Shown here piece after piece: positions 1 through 12,213 of a DNA stretch of 12,213 nt; within the stretch, counting starts at the first letter, position 1; each line of letters starts with the position of its first letter. The stretch is from NCBI GenBank assembly GCA_037147175.1, contig JBAWVS010000062.1, forward strand, positions 1 through 12,213, read 5' to 3'. The DNA comes from a bacterium. GTDB lineage: Bacteria > Cyanobacteriota > Vampirovibrionia > Gastranaerophilales > UBA9971. Below the pieces are notes generated by a model. That model worked only from the letters and a program-made list of their open reading frames with translations. It was not told the DNA's origin and searched no databases. The position numbers and the translations under genes are program-made.

Positions 1-56
1 AATACAAATTTTTAGAATTAAAAACTCGTCAAAAAATTAGTTTTTAGAGATGCCCC
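1..56. mobile_element. Right end of a TA-flanked MITE/IS630-type element inserted in rep
   Basis: The right terminal inverted repeat is GTTTTTAGAGATGCCCC at 40-56. It is an imperfect reverse complement (13 of 17) of TGGGCACTCCTAAAAAC at 12160-12176. It is followed by TA at 57-58, matching the TA at 12158-12159 that precedes the left end. All three forward frames carry stops here, so no transposase reading frame is visible. Treated as circular, the element runs 12160-12213 plus 1-56, 110 bp in total, and would be non-autonomous. TA duplication is typical of the IS630/Tc1/mariner group; the family assignment is inference. If the ends do not abut, a larger element could lie between them. Confidence 0.7.
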
Positions 57-759
57 TAAGCAGGAAACAATTACAGATAAACTAGGGATTTCTTTGAGTA
101 GTGTTAAGAGAGCAGTAAAAGAACTTTCTAAGGCGAATATAATCATCATAGAGCTAAAATTTTCTAATAGATATAATCTAACTCCAACTTTTTTCGACCT
201 GCTTAATATGACACCTGATGCAGTCCAAATTGAACCGTTAAAGTGTCAAAATGAAACGAATCATGTAGTAACAGAAAAAGAACTAAATAAAAAAACAGAA
301 AAAACTTTTATTTTTAAAAATCTTTTAGAATTAGCAAAAACTAATACTGTCGCATACTATGAACAAATTTTAAATCTTTCGGATCAGGATAAAGAACATT
401 TATGCAAGATAAAACTTGGTAGAATGTCTTTAACAGATTTTCAAAAAACTAACCTCAATAAGTTTATTATGCTCTCGGATAGTGAAATTATCGCTATAAA
501 TAATAAGGAGCCTTATTTTAGGCAAGAGAACATAGACATTTATTACAATCAGAGAATGTCAAAAATCAGAGAATTTCAAGAGCAACCACAAAAACAGGAG
601 GAAAATATCCTGAAAAATGAAAAAGAAGAAACTTTAGCAATGTTGAAAGCAGGATACAAAGCATTTAGCAACAATAAAGCACACTTAATATCTTTCTTAA
701 ATAGGAATAAAGGTAAAATGGAACATTTTAAAATTACTGAACTAGATTTATGTTGTTAA
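57..759 (+). pseudogene. 3' part of disrupted HTH_36-type replication initiator-like gene
   Basis: The open frame resumes at the TA flanking the insertion and reads PKQETITDKLGIS, followed by SLSSVKRAVKEL, the recognition half of a winged helix-turn-helix. This is followed by a charged, probably helical C-terminal region. It is the missing continuation of the 53-codon piece at 12000-12158; joined, they make a 286-aa protein. A TTG at 94 has AGGG six bases upstream and could restart translation, giving 221 aa without the first helices of the DNA-binding domain. HTH_36 proteins of this architecture are common plasmid replication or regulatory proteins. The role as initiator is inferred from the family and from its position next to the control region. 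Stop codons upstream (13-15 and 19-21) lie inside the inserted element. Confidence 0.72.
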
Positions 760-1507: not shown

Positions 1508-2831
1508 AATCATCTTCAAGTTGATCTATATCTTCCGACATACCCTGACGGGGATAATTATTGTCTTCTTCATCTGCATCGGTGCAAGTATCTTCTTCAG
1601 GAATAACGGCGATACTTCCTTTTGGTATAGAGGGTTCGTATAATGAAGGGTTATAATCAGGGTTGTATGATACTGGAGCATTTACTAAATCACATAACTC
1701 ATTGTAGTAACATACATTTTTTTTATTCTTATGGATAAAAGGCTCTACTACTTTATTTATTTCAGAATTTGTATACCCCAAATCTTTTAATAGCATTTTT
1801 AAGTATAGTAAATCATCCTTATCCAAATCCATAAAAGGTAATATTCTTTTATAATAAGGAGTATTTTTAGAAAAAGCTTTTGTATCTGTTGTGGATGCAA
1901 GTTCATTACAAAAAATGCTGCTATTAAGCTGTTCTGTGAATACGGCATCTAATTTATCATACAAATTTCCACGCTTTAGGCAATCTGTTACTATTCTTAA
2001 AGAAAGTTTCCTGTTTTTCTTTCCAGTGTCAACAAGCCTTTCATAAATATAGCCGACACTTTTTGAGGTATAAGCCAGTTCTATTCTAAGTAAGTTTAAA
2101 TTTTCATTCAATGTAAGGGTATTGGTAACTTTATTATAATGATCTTGTAGCAATTCCGCTTCTTCATTGCTTAACTGTTCTCTTAGCTTTATTTTTCCGT
2201 ATCCCCTTTTGTAGAGCTGAAATTTTTTATCATAGAACTTTATTATCTTTGAAAAAGTGTAGTGTTTCTCGTCATTTTTTGCCAGCCTATGGAAATAACA
2301 ACTATCACTTTCTATACTTTGGTGCAGTACAGGAGAAAAACAATCTTTATACGGAATTTCTGTAAGCAGCATGGGAACATAAGAATTTGAAACGTGGTTA
2401 TTAACCATAAATGTTTTAGTCAGATGCATCTCTGTAATTTGAAAGCCTTTGATTAAGTTACTTCCGACAAGAATATCCAAATCAACTATTCCGAGTTTTT
2501 TCAACAAATTCAAAAAGACATCATTCGGGATCATCTGTAAATTTATTGTATCTTTTTCTCTGTATGCCCTTGTAGGATTGAAGTTAATATATAACCTGCC
2601 ATATCTTCTATAACAGAAGTAGTCGTATTCAGGGAAATATATACTTAGAATTTTGTTGTAGGTCTTCTCTAGCTGCCTTATGGGCTTATCCTTCGGGTTA
2701 ATAAATTCGTTATTCAGATTATTTTCAGCCAGTAAGTTTTCTATCGAAATATAACCGTTTTCCAAGTAAAGCTTCATATCCGCTTCACTTATCATAATTT
2801 TAAATTTATCAATAATAACCTTATTCAGCAT
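1452..2831 (-). CDS. Phage_CRI/rolling-circle Rep-like protein with acidic tail
   Basis: A 459-aa protein. The chosen ATG at 2831 has AAAGG eight bases upstream and overlaps the stop of the preceding gene by 11 bp, so the two are translationally coupled. Residues about 75-260 have the look of filamentous-phage replication initiators: a central block around GFQITEMHLTKTF (129-141), a basic/aromatic KIIKFYDKKFQLY segment (195-207), and NLLRIELAY (246-254) like the ILRYEL strand of that family. I did not find an unambiguous HUH motif. Residues 411-459 are extremely acidic, with about half Asp/Glu, and end DDFDDFE. The role in DNA replication is inference from these resemblances and from the plasmid context. 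It could be the working initiator now that the HTH-type rep gene is broken. An unrelated nucleic-acid-binding protein remains possible. Confidence 0.5.
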   Translation of the reverse strand: MLNKVIIDKFKIMISEADMKLYLENGYISIENLLAENNLNNEFINPKDKPIRQLEKTYNKILSIYFPEYDYFCYRRYGRLYINFNPTRAYREKDTINLQMIPNDVFLNLLKKLGIVDLDILVGSNLIKGFQITEMHLTKTFMVNNHVSNSYVPMLLTEIPYKDCFSPVLHQSIESDSCYFHRLAKNDEKHYTFSKIIKFYDKKFQLYKRGYGKIKLREQLSNEEAELLQDHYNKVTNTLTLNENLNLLRIELAYTSKSVGYIYERLVDTGKKNRKLSLRIVTDCLKRGNLYDKLDAVFTEQLNSSIFCNELASTTDTKAFSKNTPYYKRILPFMDLDKDDLLYLKMLLKDLGYTNSEINKVVEPFIHKNKKNVCYYNELCDLVNAPVSYNPDYNPSLYEPSIPKGSIAVIPEEDTCTDADEEDNNYPRQGMSEDIDQLEDDFTWDDADDIEFDDFDDFE

Positions 2832-4275
2832 CAATGCAACCTTTGAAATAAGTAACAAAATCTGTAATAGCTCTTTCTTTTGCCTTAGCACGTTTTTTAT
2901 TTAAACTTTTAGCGTATCGGCTTATATCTTCAAAATATTTAAAATAATTTTTGTAATTTCTATTATCGAGCTTTTCCATTTCCGCATTAAGATGTTCTTC
3001 ATTAAGTTTGTTCCAAAAAAGTACCAAAATAGCATCATTGTTTAGTGAATATTTTTTATCTTTTTTCTTTATTAATCCGCATCGAGATAAAAATGTCCTG
3101 TCGCAATGGAAAAAAGATTTTTTTATGGAAGCAAAATCATTTCCATATTCTGCACAACCATAAAGTAAACTAAAATAAATAAATTCATTAAAATCTTTCT
3201 GTAATTTATCTTCCCCTTTATTTAACAGCTCAAATATATATTCAGCTGTAGTAACAGGCAAATCCCAAATACCTTTAATATTATTAGAGCTTATAACTCG
3301 TAATATTAAACACATATTACGTTCCGCACTGTTAGCAGTAACTTTTTTAATGATGAGATTTATATTGCTTCTCTTGGTATGATAAAATCCTGTGTTTTCC
3401 TTATCATTATAGATTTTGTCATCAAACCCATAGATCAAAGACTGTTTTTCATAGATGCAGGAAGCCGTCTCTTTTTCTCCACGTAACTTAATTTGAGAGA
3501 GTTCAGCGAAATAGTCATTATAGAAGAACTTTGAAGAATTAAGTATATTTCTAACCAAAATACTGGTGACTTTGGTATTAGTTACTTTTATGTTGGCTTT
3601 TTGAACTATATTTGTAACCAAATTCACATCGGAAGTAATGCAATTAAACAAATTAGGCGGTGGTACAAGATTATTTTCATTGACATAGTCGGCAGCATAG
3701 TCATCCAAATACCGTAACCACTCCATGAACACTAATATTGTCAGCAGGTCTGAAAAATACCTGTAATCTATTTTCTCAAGGACTTTTTTGTCAACTTCCC
3801 TGTATTTTTTAATATTGATTCTGTAATACAGGTTGTTGATGTAATCTCCTGCTTCAGGATGGGTATGTCTGCTTTTTGTTTGATTTTTTAAGCTGGGAAT
3901 TATCTTGATGTACTGAAACAGGTATCTGTCTTCAAAATGATTTATAAACTTATCCAAGCTTTCTTTTTTTATCAAAGATAAAAATCTACTTAAAATTATT
4001 TCATTACCGTCTTCATACAGGGATTTTAAGAAAGTAAACGGCTTATCAAACCTCTCCTGATATAATTTATTTTCTTTGTTGCTGTAACTACAACTGTTAT
4101 ACCAGCTATATGAATTTGAAAGCATCTTTTTAGCGGAATCGAAATCAATAGATATTTTTGTATCTTCCGATAATAAAATAGAGCAGTCTTTCCCAATAAT
4201 AAATTCATCATCTACTATTATATCAATAGAATCAACAAGAAATTTACTGCTGGATATAGAAGAAACATTAGTCAT
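2821..4275 (-). CDS. Unrecognised 484-aa protein, partner of the Rep-like gene
   Basis: No family was recognised. It is soluble-looking, with no signal peptide and no membrane segment, and is mixed helical with many Asn/Lys/Tyr. Towards the C-terminus, a segment around residues 375-415 (FHCDRTFLSRCGLIKKKDKKYSL) has the shape of a winged-helix recognition helix and wing. This is followed by a helical, basic stretch (SLNKKRAKAKERAI) that suggests nucleic-acid contact. Its stop codon overlaps the start of the Rep-like gene, so the two form a tight operon and probably act together. The ATG at 4275 lacks a clear Shine-Dalgarno; AT-rich TATAAA and TATAAT sequences lie just upstream, so a short leader is likely. 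The function is unknown; a DNA-binding accessory of replication is the simplest guess from position alone. Confidence 0.75.
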   Translation of the reverse strand: MTNVSSISSSKFLVDSIDIIVDDEFIIGKDCSILLSEDTKISIDFDSAKKMLSNSYSWYNSCSYSNKENKLYQERFDKPFTFLKSLYEDGNEIILSRFLSLIKKESLDKFINHFEDRYLFQYIKIIPSLKNQTKSRHTHPEAGDYINNLYYRINIKKYREVDKKVLEKIDYRYFSDLLTILVFMEWLRYLDDYAADYVNENNLVPPPNLFNCITSDVNLVTNIVQKANIKVTNTKVTSILVRNILNSSKFFYNDYFAELSQIKLRGEKETASCIYEKQSLIYGFDDKIYNDKENTGFYHTKRSNINLIIKKVTANSAERNMCLILRVISSNNIKGIWDLPVTTAEYIFELLNKGEDKLQKDFNEFIYFSLLYGCAEYGNDFASIKKSFFHCDRTFLSRCGLIKKKDKKYSLNNDAILVLFWNKLNEEHLNAEMEKLDNRNYKNYFKYFEDISRYAKSLNKKRAKAKERAITDFVTYFKGCIDAE

Positions 4276-7524: not shown

Positions 7525-8079
7525 ATGGAATATAAACAAATGCTATTAAATTCACACTACAGTTACAACCCGCAAATATATTTGAAACCTTCTTTTAGAG
7601 GGGTATCCTCAAGTATTAAAAATTTCCAAAAAGTGGATGATTGTCTATATAGAGGGGGTAATCCAACTCTGGAACAATTACGACAGCTAAAAAAGCAAGG
7701 GTTCTCAACTATTGTCAGTTTTAGAACAGGTTATCAGGGCAACGAATTTGATGAAGCTCAGGCTGTTAAAGCTTTAGGAATGAAACATATACATCTTCCT
7801 TTTATTTCTTGGGATAATCCGCCTGAAAATCACGTTAGCACATTCTTTGCTAATATAGAACAAGCAAAAAGTAAAGGAGAAAAAGTTTTTATACATTGTA
7901 CTCACGGAAAAGATAGAACAGGACTTTTTTCTGCTATGTATAAATTAACCTATGGTCTTGACAACATTGACGACTGTATTAGGGAAATGTTTAAATTAGG
8001 ACATAATGCAACGGAAAATCCCAACTTAATTCCATACTTAAGAAATTTTGCACAGAAGTTACCACAAAGGAGAATATAA
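7525..8079 (+). CDS. Atypical dual-specificity/tyrosine phosphatase
   Basis: A 184-aa protein. It carries the cysteine-phosphatase signature HCTHGKDRTG with nucleophile Cys125 and Arg131 (C-x5-R), and a likely general acid Asp97 in SWDNPP. Upstream, LYRGGNPTLEQLRQLKKQGF and TIVSFRTG match the small atypical dual-specificity fold (Siw14/PFA-DSP-like) as I know it. Substrates in this broad family include phosphotyrosine and inositol phosphates; which applies here is unknown. Residues 1-30 precede the domain and contain PSFRG, a motif shared with the neighbouring protein. There is no hydrophobic signal peptide and no clear Shine-Dalgarno. A TATAAA lies just upstream, so the mRNA may be nearly leaderless. 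It is two bases from the next gene, so they form an operon. Confidence 0.85.
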   Translation: MEYKQMLLNSHYSYNPQIYLKPSFRGVSSSIKNFQKVDDCLYRGGNPTLEQLRQLKKQGFSTIVSFRTGYQGNEFDEAQAVKALGMKHIHLPFISWDNPPENHVSTFFANIEQAKSKGEKVFIHCTHGKDRTGLFSAMYKLTYGLDNIDDCIREMFKLGHNATENPNLIPYLRNFAQKLPQRRI

Positions 8080-8081
8080 TA

Positions 8082-9527
8082 ATGAAAGTGAATCCAAGCT
8101 TAGTTTGCAAACAGCAAAACAATCTCAAAAACTCAAATAGCCAAGTTCAAAAAAACTTTAACGAAACCAATGACAGCCATTCTGAGATTAATTTAAACTT
8201 ACAACCGAATGCGCATTTAAATAAACTGTCTTTTACAGGAAGTTTAAATAAAGGCATTGAAAGTGCAGAAGTTTTTGTCGGAAAATTTTTAAAAACCGAA
8301 AGTCCAATTGAATCAGCTAAGTTATTATTAGGAAGGTATCCTGAACTAAGCTGGCTAACTGGTTCTGTGAATGCAACTCCAGAAGGTGTTGCCAAAACAA
8401 GTAAATCTATATCCGAAGCCATTTTTGGTAAACAACATACGGAATTTGACAGGACATTAACGGGAATAGAAACAATAAAATGGGTTCTTAAAGGTGATTA
8501 TGAACAATTTACAAAATGCCAAAAGCCCGAAGTTAAATTAACCCGTGAAAATTTTGACCATTTAAAAAGATATACTCACGAAGTGTTACCGAAGCCAGAA
8601 GATGTAGATGCAATGATTGGATATACAGTTATTAATGATTTAGGGAAAATCAAGTCTGTTGTAAGCGACATTCAGCAAAAAACGGGCATTCATGCCGTAG
8701 ACCACGATGATATATTATTATACGCTCTTAAACACACACCTGAAGAAGTACCTACGTTTAAAAGACTTTCTCCCGAACACAAAGATACAGTAGTAAGAAG
8801 CTTAGAACCTCAATTTAATATTGGACAATTTTTACAAGCTGAGAATCTCCCCGCAAATTTAACAGGATTAAAAAATCTCGACCCTAAAGCAATGGATTAT
8901 TATTTAACACACGCTGTTTATGATATTGCAGGAGCAGCAGGACATGTTAATCCTGACGGTTCTGTAGTTATGACAAATCCTCTTTATGAAGGCTTCAAAC
9001 AGGGAATTAATTCAATAAAAAGACTGTCTAACGGAGAATCAGAAGCTACGGTCTATAATAGCTTTATGCAAGCAAAAGCAGAAGCATTACAAATGCCATT
9101 TGATACTCCAAAAGACAAGGCTTTGGCAAAATTGGCAGTTTTATCAAGAGCAGGAAGTACAGGCGAAGCCAAAACAATAAGAAATGTCTTTGAATCTTTA
9201 TCTGATGAACATCAAAAAACATTAACCACCCATTTAAATAGAACGGGTATTGAAGACAAAGGGATTCTTTTATACTATGCTCCAGCATTTCTACAAAATT
9301 TAAAAGGTGCTTTAAAAGAACAACCAGAGCAAGCTTTACAAAAAGGATTCTCAACACTGGCTGAACTTTATCAAAGAGCGGACAAAATGGCTGATAAACC
9401 TAAAGGGGTATTTACTGTATTAATTTCGGATATTGCTAAAACAGCAAAAGAAGCTCCAGAGAAATTATTACCAGAAAATATTTCTTTAAAACCTGTAGGT
9501 GATAATGCAGAAGCAATAATAGCATAA
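8082..9527 (+). CDS. 481-aa helical protein with NDLGK and DHDD motifs, uncertain family
   Basis: It starts two bases after the phosphatase stop, with AAAGGAG ten bases before the ATG. Residues 1-48 are polar and disordered-looking, followed by LSFTG (49-53), then a mostly helical body. In the middle are motifs reminiscent of HD phosphohydrolases, although the first His is Asn: VINDLGK, then about 20 residues later VDHDDILLYAL, then YDIAGAAGHV. Between them is FNIGQFLQAENLPANL. From memory this block resembles a domain described mainly in fungi (DUF6829-like); I could not verify this. There is no signal peptide or membrane segment. Coupling to a phosphatase suggests a shared pathway, possibly phosphate-ester or nucleotide metabolism, which is inference. 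The last 15 residues are low-complexity. Confidence 0.6.
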   Translation: MKVNPSLVCKQQNNLKNSNSQVQKNFNETNDSHSEINLNLQPNAHLNKLSFTGSLNKGIESAEVFVGKFLKTESPIESAKLLLGRYPELSWLTGSVNATPEGVAKTSKSISEAIFGKQHTEFDRTLTGIETIKWVLKGDYEQFTKCQKPEVKLTRENFDHLKRYTHEVLPKPEDVDAMIGYTVINDLGKIKSVVSDIQQKTGIHAVDHDDILLYALKHTPEEVPTFKRLSPEHKDTVVRSLEPQFNIGQFLQAENLPANLTGLKNLDPKAMDYYLTHAVYDIAGAAGHVNPDGSVVMTNPLYEGFKQGINSIKRLSNGESEATVYNSFMQAKAEALQMPFDTPKDKALAKLAVLSRAGSTGEAKTIRNVFESLSDEHQKTLTTHLNRTGIEDKGILLYYAPAFLQNLKGALKEQPEQALQKGFSTLAELYQRADKMADKPKGVFTVLISDIAKTAKEAPEKLLPENISLKPVGDNAEAIIA

Positions 9528-9568: not shown

Positions 9569-9838
9569 TTATAGATTCTCAAAAGCATTTATTTTCAGGC
9601 ATTGTTCCAGCTCATAACGCTCTAGGTGGCTTCTTAATAGAAATCCCATTATCAAAGAGCTAGAAATTACGTCTTTTACGCTGATACCAACATTCTTTCT
9701 TGCCCTGTCCAGTAGTTCCGCATAGTCATTTATTGCTTCAAGTACCTGTGGATCAATTCTATCCACCATTAACTTCTCATTTTTCTTAGTCTTCTCAAGG
9801 CTTGTAAAGAATTTCTTTATTTGTTTTCTTAAGCTCAT
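9569..9838 (-). CDS. Small helical protein, unknown
   Basis: An 89-aa protein when started at the ATG 9838; a TTG five codons upstream is also possible. The Shine-Dalgarno is weak (GGGG). The sequence has a basic N-terminal helix (SLRKQIKKFFTSLEKTKKNEK) followed by a helix-rich region (VDRIDPQVLEAINDYAELLDRARKNVG) and ISVKDVISSSLIMGFLL, a layout that could suit a small DNA-binding or regulatory protein. No family was recognised. It converges on the 481-aa gene, with 41 bp between stop codons. A TATAAA box lies upstream on the minus strand. Confidence 0.55.
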   Translation of the reverse strand: MSLRKQIKKFFTSLEKTKKNEKLMVDRIDPQVLEAINDYAELLDRARKNVGISVKDVISSSLIMGFLLRSHLERYELEQCLKINAFENL

Positions 9839-10015
9839 TTTATTTAACCCCAATGATAATGGTAATATACTTAATTTATACCCTTCAGCGGGATTTTTTA
9901 AACAATCTTCAGGGTGCTGGAAAAATTATTTACCAAAACATCTTGTAAAAATCCTCAAATATGTAATAATAATAATATAAAGAAACAAAATTTAAAAATT
10001 AAAGTCTTAAATAAA

Positions 10016-11999: not shown

Positions 12000-12200
12000 A
12001 TGCAAAATGCGGCATTACTACAGCAAAAACCGACACAATTCAAATTAAGTAAGATTACCTTACAAAGTTTATGCAGGTTCGATATAAGCCCTACGGCGAA
12101 GCTTGTATTGCTTTATTTAGTAGACTGCTACAACCCTGCTAAAAGTTATATCTTTCCTATGGGCACTCCTAAAAACATAAAAATTTACAATATGGTATAA
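12000..12200 (+). pseudogene. 5' part of disrupted HTH_36-type replication initiator-like gene
   Basis: The ATG at 12000 has GGAGG and AAAGGA upstream. Codons 1-53 encode the N-terminal half of a winged helix-turn-helix protein (SPTAKLVLLYLVDCYNP is the typical first helix of HTH_36), ending in YIFP at 12158. The element inserted at the TA then supplies 13 foreign codons and a stop at 12198-12200, giving a 66-aa product with no recognition helix. The rest of the gene is at 58-759. Such proteins commonly initiate plasmid replication. The insertion implies loss of function unless the C-terminal piece restarts or an intact copy exists elsewhere. Confidence 0.75.
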
Positions 12201-12213
12201 TTAACCTGTTAAT
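12160..12213. mobile_element. Left end of the TA-flanked element in rep
   Basis: It begins with the left terminal repeat TGGGCACTCCTAAAAAC (12160-12176), preceded by TA. ATTAAC and GTTAAT at 12200-12213 form an inverted repeat that extends across the window ends (GTATAATTAAC at 12195-12205 against GTTAATAATAC at 12208-12213 plus 1-5, 10 of 11). This supports the ends being directly joined. No transposase coding is seen. Confidence 0.65.

Follow-up and report, generated by a model that had tools for sequence, protein, structure and literature searches.

The window, all 12,213 nucleotides of a linear contig (C62) from a 109-contig, 2.66-Mb draft genome (G000), carries half of a single HTH_36 gene at each end, and each half abuts a short segment of a mobile element. 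This raises the questions of what the element is, how long it may be, and what kind of molecule the contig represents. The reading that we favor, at a probability of about 85%, is that the HTH_36 gene of a circular or tandemly repeated 12-kb replicon has been interrupted by a multi-copy element of the IS5 family, which may be a complete insertion sequence (IS) or a short nonautonomous derivative. The features concerned are as follows.

12000 to 12156, forward strand: first half of the HTH_36 gene, from its ATG through codons 1 to 52 plus 1 nt (tblastn with C55 and C92; Pfam HTH_36 positions 3 to 26)
12157 to 12160, forward strand: left copy of a probable 4-bp target duplication, CTAT (from the sequence and the 4-bp rule of related elements)
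12161 to 12213, forward strand: left-hand 53 nt of the element, with terminal inverted repeat (TIR) GGGCACTCCTAAAAAC, truncated by the contig end
1 to 55, forward strand: right-hand 55 nt of the element, with TIR GTTTTTAGAGATGCCC at the outer end, truncated by the contig start
56 to 59, forward strand: right copy of the probable target duplication, CTAA (from the sequence and the empty sites in paralogues)
56 to 759, forward strand: remaining half of the HTH_36 gene, through the stop codon (tblastn; Pfam HTH_36 positions 26 to 55)

An HTH_36 gene divided between the contig ends

A first-pass annotation of this DNA reported that rejoining the halves gives an in-frame protein of 286 aa, and this is confirmed: the joined flanks form an open frame of that length through IFPKQETITDKLG, which the element interrupts in codon 53, and tblastn finds in the same genome an uninterrupted paralogue of exactly 286 aa (C55, 16034 to 16891), which is 85% identical to the reconstructed protein from end to end. 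A second uninterrupted paralogue in this genome (C92, 612 to 1481; tblastn) is 69% identical. Both have CTAA at the insertion position and thus provide empty sites at paralogous loci. The Pfam HTH_36 profile is likewise split at position 26, with positions 3 to 26 in the first half and 26 to 55 in the second; each half alone scores below the PF13730 cutoff, and the intact C55 protein matches PF13730 over positions 3 to 55 with 48.1 bits (cutoff, 25). The uninterrupted full-length paralogues and the split profile together leave a negligible likelihood that the halves are natural separate genes or that their in-frame junction arose by chance. The annotation had itself allowed that the halves might be unrelated genes, or that relatives might show no insertion polymorphism; neither holds, as the halves form one gene in the paralogues and empty sites are found at paralogous loci.

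The two contig ends belong together, and a transposable element splits an HTH_36, replication-initiator-like gene. Because the gene halves lie at opposite contig ends, C62 most likely derives from a circular molecule or from tandemly arrayed copies. The earlier description of an insertion splitting a rep gene holds as regards a real insertion and a split HTH_36 gene, both borne out by the paralogues and Pfam, and the replication initiator role is only probable. Matches of the C55 paralogue to replication-initiation families in PHROG are weak to moderate (best, 3.5e-9), and the HTH_36 protein has only two weak matches in the plasmid collection and no relative in the viral contigs.

Contig ends within a repeat and the length of the element

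Among 52 sampled contig ends (longest shared stretch, 55 nt within the first 70 nt), 30 have an exact stretch in common with another contig end, ranging from 33 to 55 nt and mostly from 50 to 55 nt, and an equal number of interior control stretches gave 0 sharing pairs. De Bruijn assemblers that use a k of roughly 55 end their contigs in this manner at repeats, and the contig ends here are such breaks. The window starts exactly 55 nt before the outer end of the element, and the last 53 nt of contig C9 (60,541 bp) are identical to window positions 3 to 55 (53/53) up to its final base; the repetition of the element is why C62 terminates within it. The C9 flank next to these 53 nt begins with TA, and this contig end is consistent with at least one further copy of the element that shares two flanking bases, TA. 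The left edge has no second occurrence in the rest of the G000 contigs examined, and its multi-copy state would follow only from the ending of the contig there.

As the contig breaks some 55 nt into an element with multiple copies, any sequence between the edges is absent from the window. The complete, self-contained 110-bp element described in the first-pass annotation is thus not established: the window is a linear contig that starts in a repeat shared with another contig end, and the "110-bp element" amounts to some 53 to 55 nt from each edge, 108 bp when joined across the two ends of a contig that is linear and breaks at a repeat. The full length may lie anywhere between about 105 bp and about 1.3 kb, with nothing between the edges if the element is about 105 to 108 bp long, and more than 1 kb if it is a complete IS. 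We note that a short "element" obtained by joining contig ends can be an assembly artifact, and a length of about twice the assembler k is a warning sign.

The contig ends could also flank two different copies of the element, as in a plasmid integrated between two chromosomal copies, in which case the two gene halves would not stand on either side of one element in any single molecule. A further copy exists, as seen at the C9 end, and recombination between copies could integrate a plasmid; however, the gene halves would still derive from one insertion, given the reading frame and the CTAT/CTAA flanks, and no examined contig joins C62 to chromosomal DNA. We consider this arrangement very unlikely.

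A probable IS5-type element and its probable 4-bp target duplication

The inverted repeats noted earlier, TGGGCACTCCTAAAAAC at 12160 and GTTTTTAGAGATGCCCC at 40 to 56, do match at 13 of 17 positions. Compared with the 16-nt TIR GGGCATCTCTAAAAAC, the right end is identical (16/16) and the left end agrees at 13 of 16 positions. Such terminal repeats (GGGCAYCTCTAAAAAC) characterize a group within the IS5 family, whose members include elements of 1,303 bp (L142, 8379 to 9681) and 1,296 bp (L129, 6626 to 7921) in two viral contigs, both with GGGCAYCTCTAAAAAC TIRs at each end (up to two mismatches) and each coding for an IS5-family DDE transposase (NF033581; 286 and 273 bits, respectively; cutoff, 140). 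In a genome of the same family (G006), a search for the TIR pattern that tolerated one mismatch gave 70 occurrences, against 0 for the reversed control, and the TIRs bound MITEs of 155 to 189 bp; a MITE of about 99 bp with these TIRs is present in viral contigs L131 and L135. Scanning the genome collection with the right edge recovered only the MITEs of RA.bin105. The exact edge patterns have no match in the viral contigs, and the window has none in the plasmid collection. As for the other copies and empty sites for which the first-pass annotation had proposed a search, the C9 end supplies the right edge and the paralogous loci supply the empty sites, but among 383 genomes of the order the exact edges match nothing besides the window itself.

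The MITE family of G006 (RA.bin105; L074 to L081 and L084 to L092) is large and its GC-rich core comes in two versions; no transposase matching the MITE TIRs was found in that bin.

The 4-bp sequences flanking the element, CTAT (12157 to 12160) and CTAA (56 to 59), are identical at three of four positions. The MITEs in G006 have duplications of 4 bp adjoining GGGC that are mostly exact (TTAA, TTGA, TTAT, ATTA, and TTTA), and those of the viral-contig elements are TTAA (L142) and CTCT (L129). As these relatives duplicate 4 bp, we read the window duplication as CTAT/CTAA, with CTAA ancestral, and by analogy it most likely belongs to the 4-bp type made by the IS5 group concerned. The exact TA target proposed earlier is not supported: TA is a subset of the 4-bp duplication and is not what the family typically duplicates, and in AT-rich DNA agreement over 2 nt carries little weight.

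Searches of the examined contigs of G000 and its close relatives turned up no transposase bearing these TIRs; eight small contigs of G000 (C102 to C109) read as N. The PF01609 and PF13359 transposases of G000 and its relatives are without these TIRs, as is an IS5-like fragment at the start of C2. Contigs of multi-copy insertion sequences are often missing from bins, and the IS itself may be unbinned, hidden in the contigs that read as N, or absent.

Within the IS5-family reading, the element could be a full-length IS of about 1.2 to 1.3 kb, with its transposase-bearing middle collapsed and outside the bin, and we give this an even chance. The same TIRs bound the 1.3-kb IS5 elements in L142 and L129, collapsed IS ends are a usual reason for contig breaks, and the left edge contains a TATAAT-like box of the sort that would precede a transposase gene, although TATAAT is weak evidence in AT-rich DNA and the contigs examined contain no such transposase. 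The odds are somewhat below even that the element is instead a nonautonomous MITE of about 105 to 108 bp, mobilized by an IS5-type transposase, with contig ends that meet or overlap by 3 nt. A MITE would be a complete noncoding element of roughly 100 to 400 bp with both TIRs. MITEs with the same TIRs are abundant in G006, a ∼99-bp one occurs in L131 and L135, and no IS transposase with these TIRs is seen in the bin; the last 3 nt of the window are also the same as the first 3 (AAT), which would suit a 105-bp element. An overlap of at least 3 nt has a 3.4% probability by chance and is slight evidence, however, any longer repeat would give contig ends of the same appearance, and apart from the TIR, the left 53 nt show no resemblance to the MITEs of G006.

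For the favored IS5-family insertion, whichever its length, an IS5-group DDE transposase acting in cis or in trans would have inserted the element at CTAA in codon 53, duplicating these 4 bp; if the element is noncoding, the transposase would have been supplied from elsewhere. Cutting the HTH domain at codon 53 presumably inactivates the gene, with loss of the protein, and the plasmid would then persist by means of another initiator, perhaps the uninterrupted paralogue of the same genome. Such an event is a typical and common mobile-element insertion, and IS5-type insertions in plasmid replication genes are of an ordinary kind.

Plasmid context and relationship to known systems

The window codes for a ParE/RHH toxin-antitoxin pair, an ArdC-like anti-restriction protein, and a serine recombinase, with which a circular source fits a plasmid. 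Two large uncharacterized proteins without a family match are encoded at 1452 to 2891 (479 aa) and 2821 to 4275 (484 aa), and replication with a broken HTH_36 gene possibly depends on another plasmid initiator (perhaps among these two), on help in trans from C55, or on a mixed population that includes intact plasmids. The contig enters the element unbroken at the insertion point, and this hints that molecules with an empty site (TTTCCTAAGCAG) are scarce in the population that was sampled. It is conceivable, but unlikely, that a fixed MITE or IS insertion silenced the initiator of the plasmid and that the C55 paralogue (85% identity) supplies the initiator in trans; the plasmid would then be a parasite of another replicon, and a dependence on a paralogous initiator would be of mild interest.

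Several other loci are recorded here as observations. The window genes at 8082 to 9527 and 7525 to 8079 code for a dual-specificity phosphatase-like protein and, after it, a 481-aa protein that matches no family. In C55 (locus L230), a plasmid-like module with HTH_36, a 94-aa protein, and a HigB-like protein sits beside chemotaxis-type genes and is perhaps an integrated plasmid; the DNA of the 94-aa protein gene is 95% identical to window positions 9584 to 9904. Contig C92 (L083; 4,104 bp) has HTH_36, GIY-YIG-like, and coiled-coil/HTH genes in an order like that of the window end, and 36-nt direct terminal repeats, but its start is common to C11, C18, and C93 and its circularity is therefore uncertain. 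An apparent CRISPR-like array whose repeat contains ATTATAACATATTTGAAAAGACGGTAGATTCAAAAC lies in C13 (L127, 1100 to 1300), just past a transposase at the contig start.

Among known systems, the split gene resembles the HTH_36 (PF13730) replication-initiation proteins of plasmids and phages, in that each window half fits its part of PF13730 and the intact paralogue matches PHROG replication-initiation families, but it differs in being broken in codon 53. The element shares the 16-nt TIR GGGCAYCTCTAAAAAC and probably a 4-bp target with the IS5 family (NCBIfam NF033581, transpos_IS5_4; L142 and L129), whereas no transposase is visible in the window. Like the MITEs of G006 (RA.bin105, JAKLDH01), it has the TIR, AAAAAATT adjoining the right TIR, and probably a 4-bp duplication abutting GGGC; the G006 MITEs, in contrast, are 155 to 189 bp long with a GC-rich hairpin core, and the 53 nt on the left side of the window element match none of them beyond the TIR.
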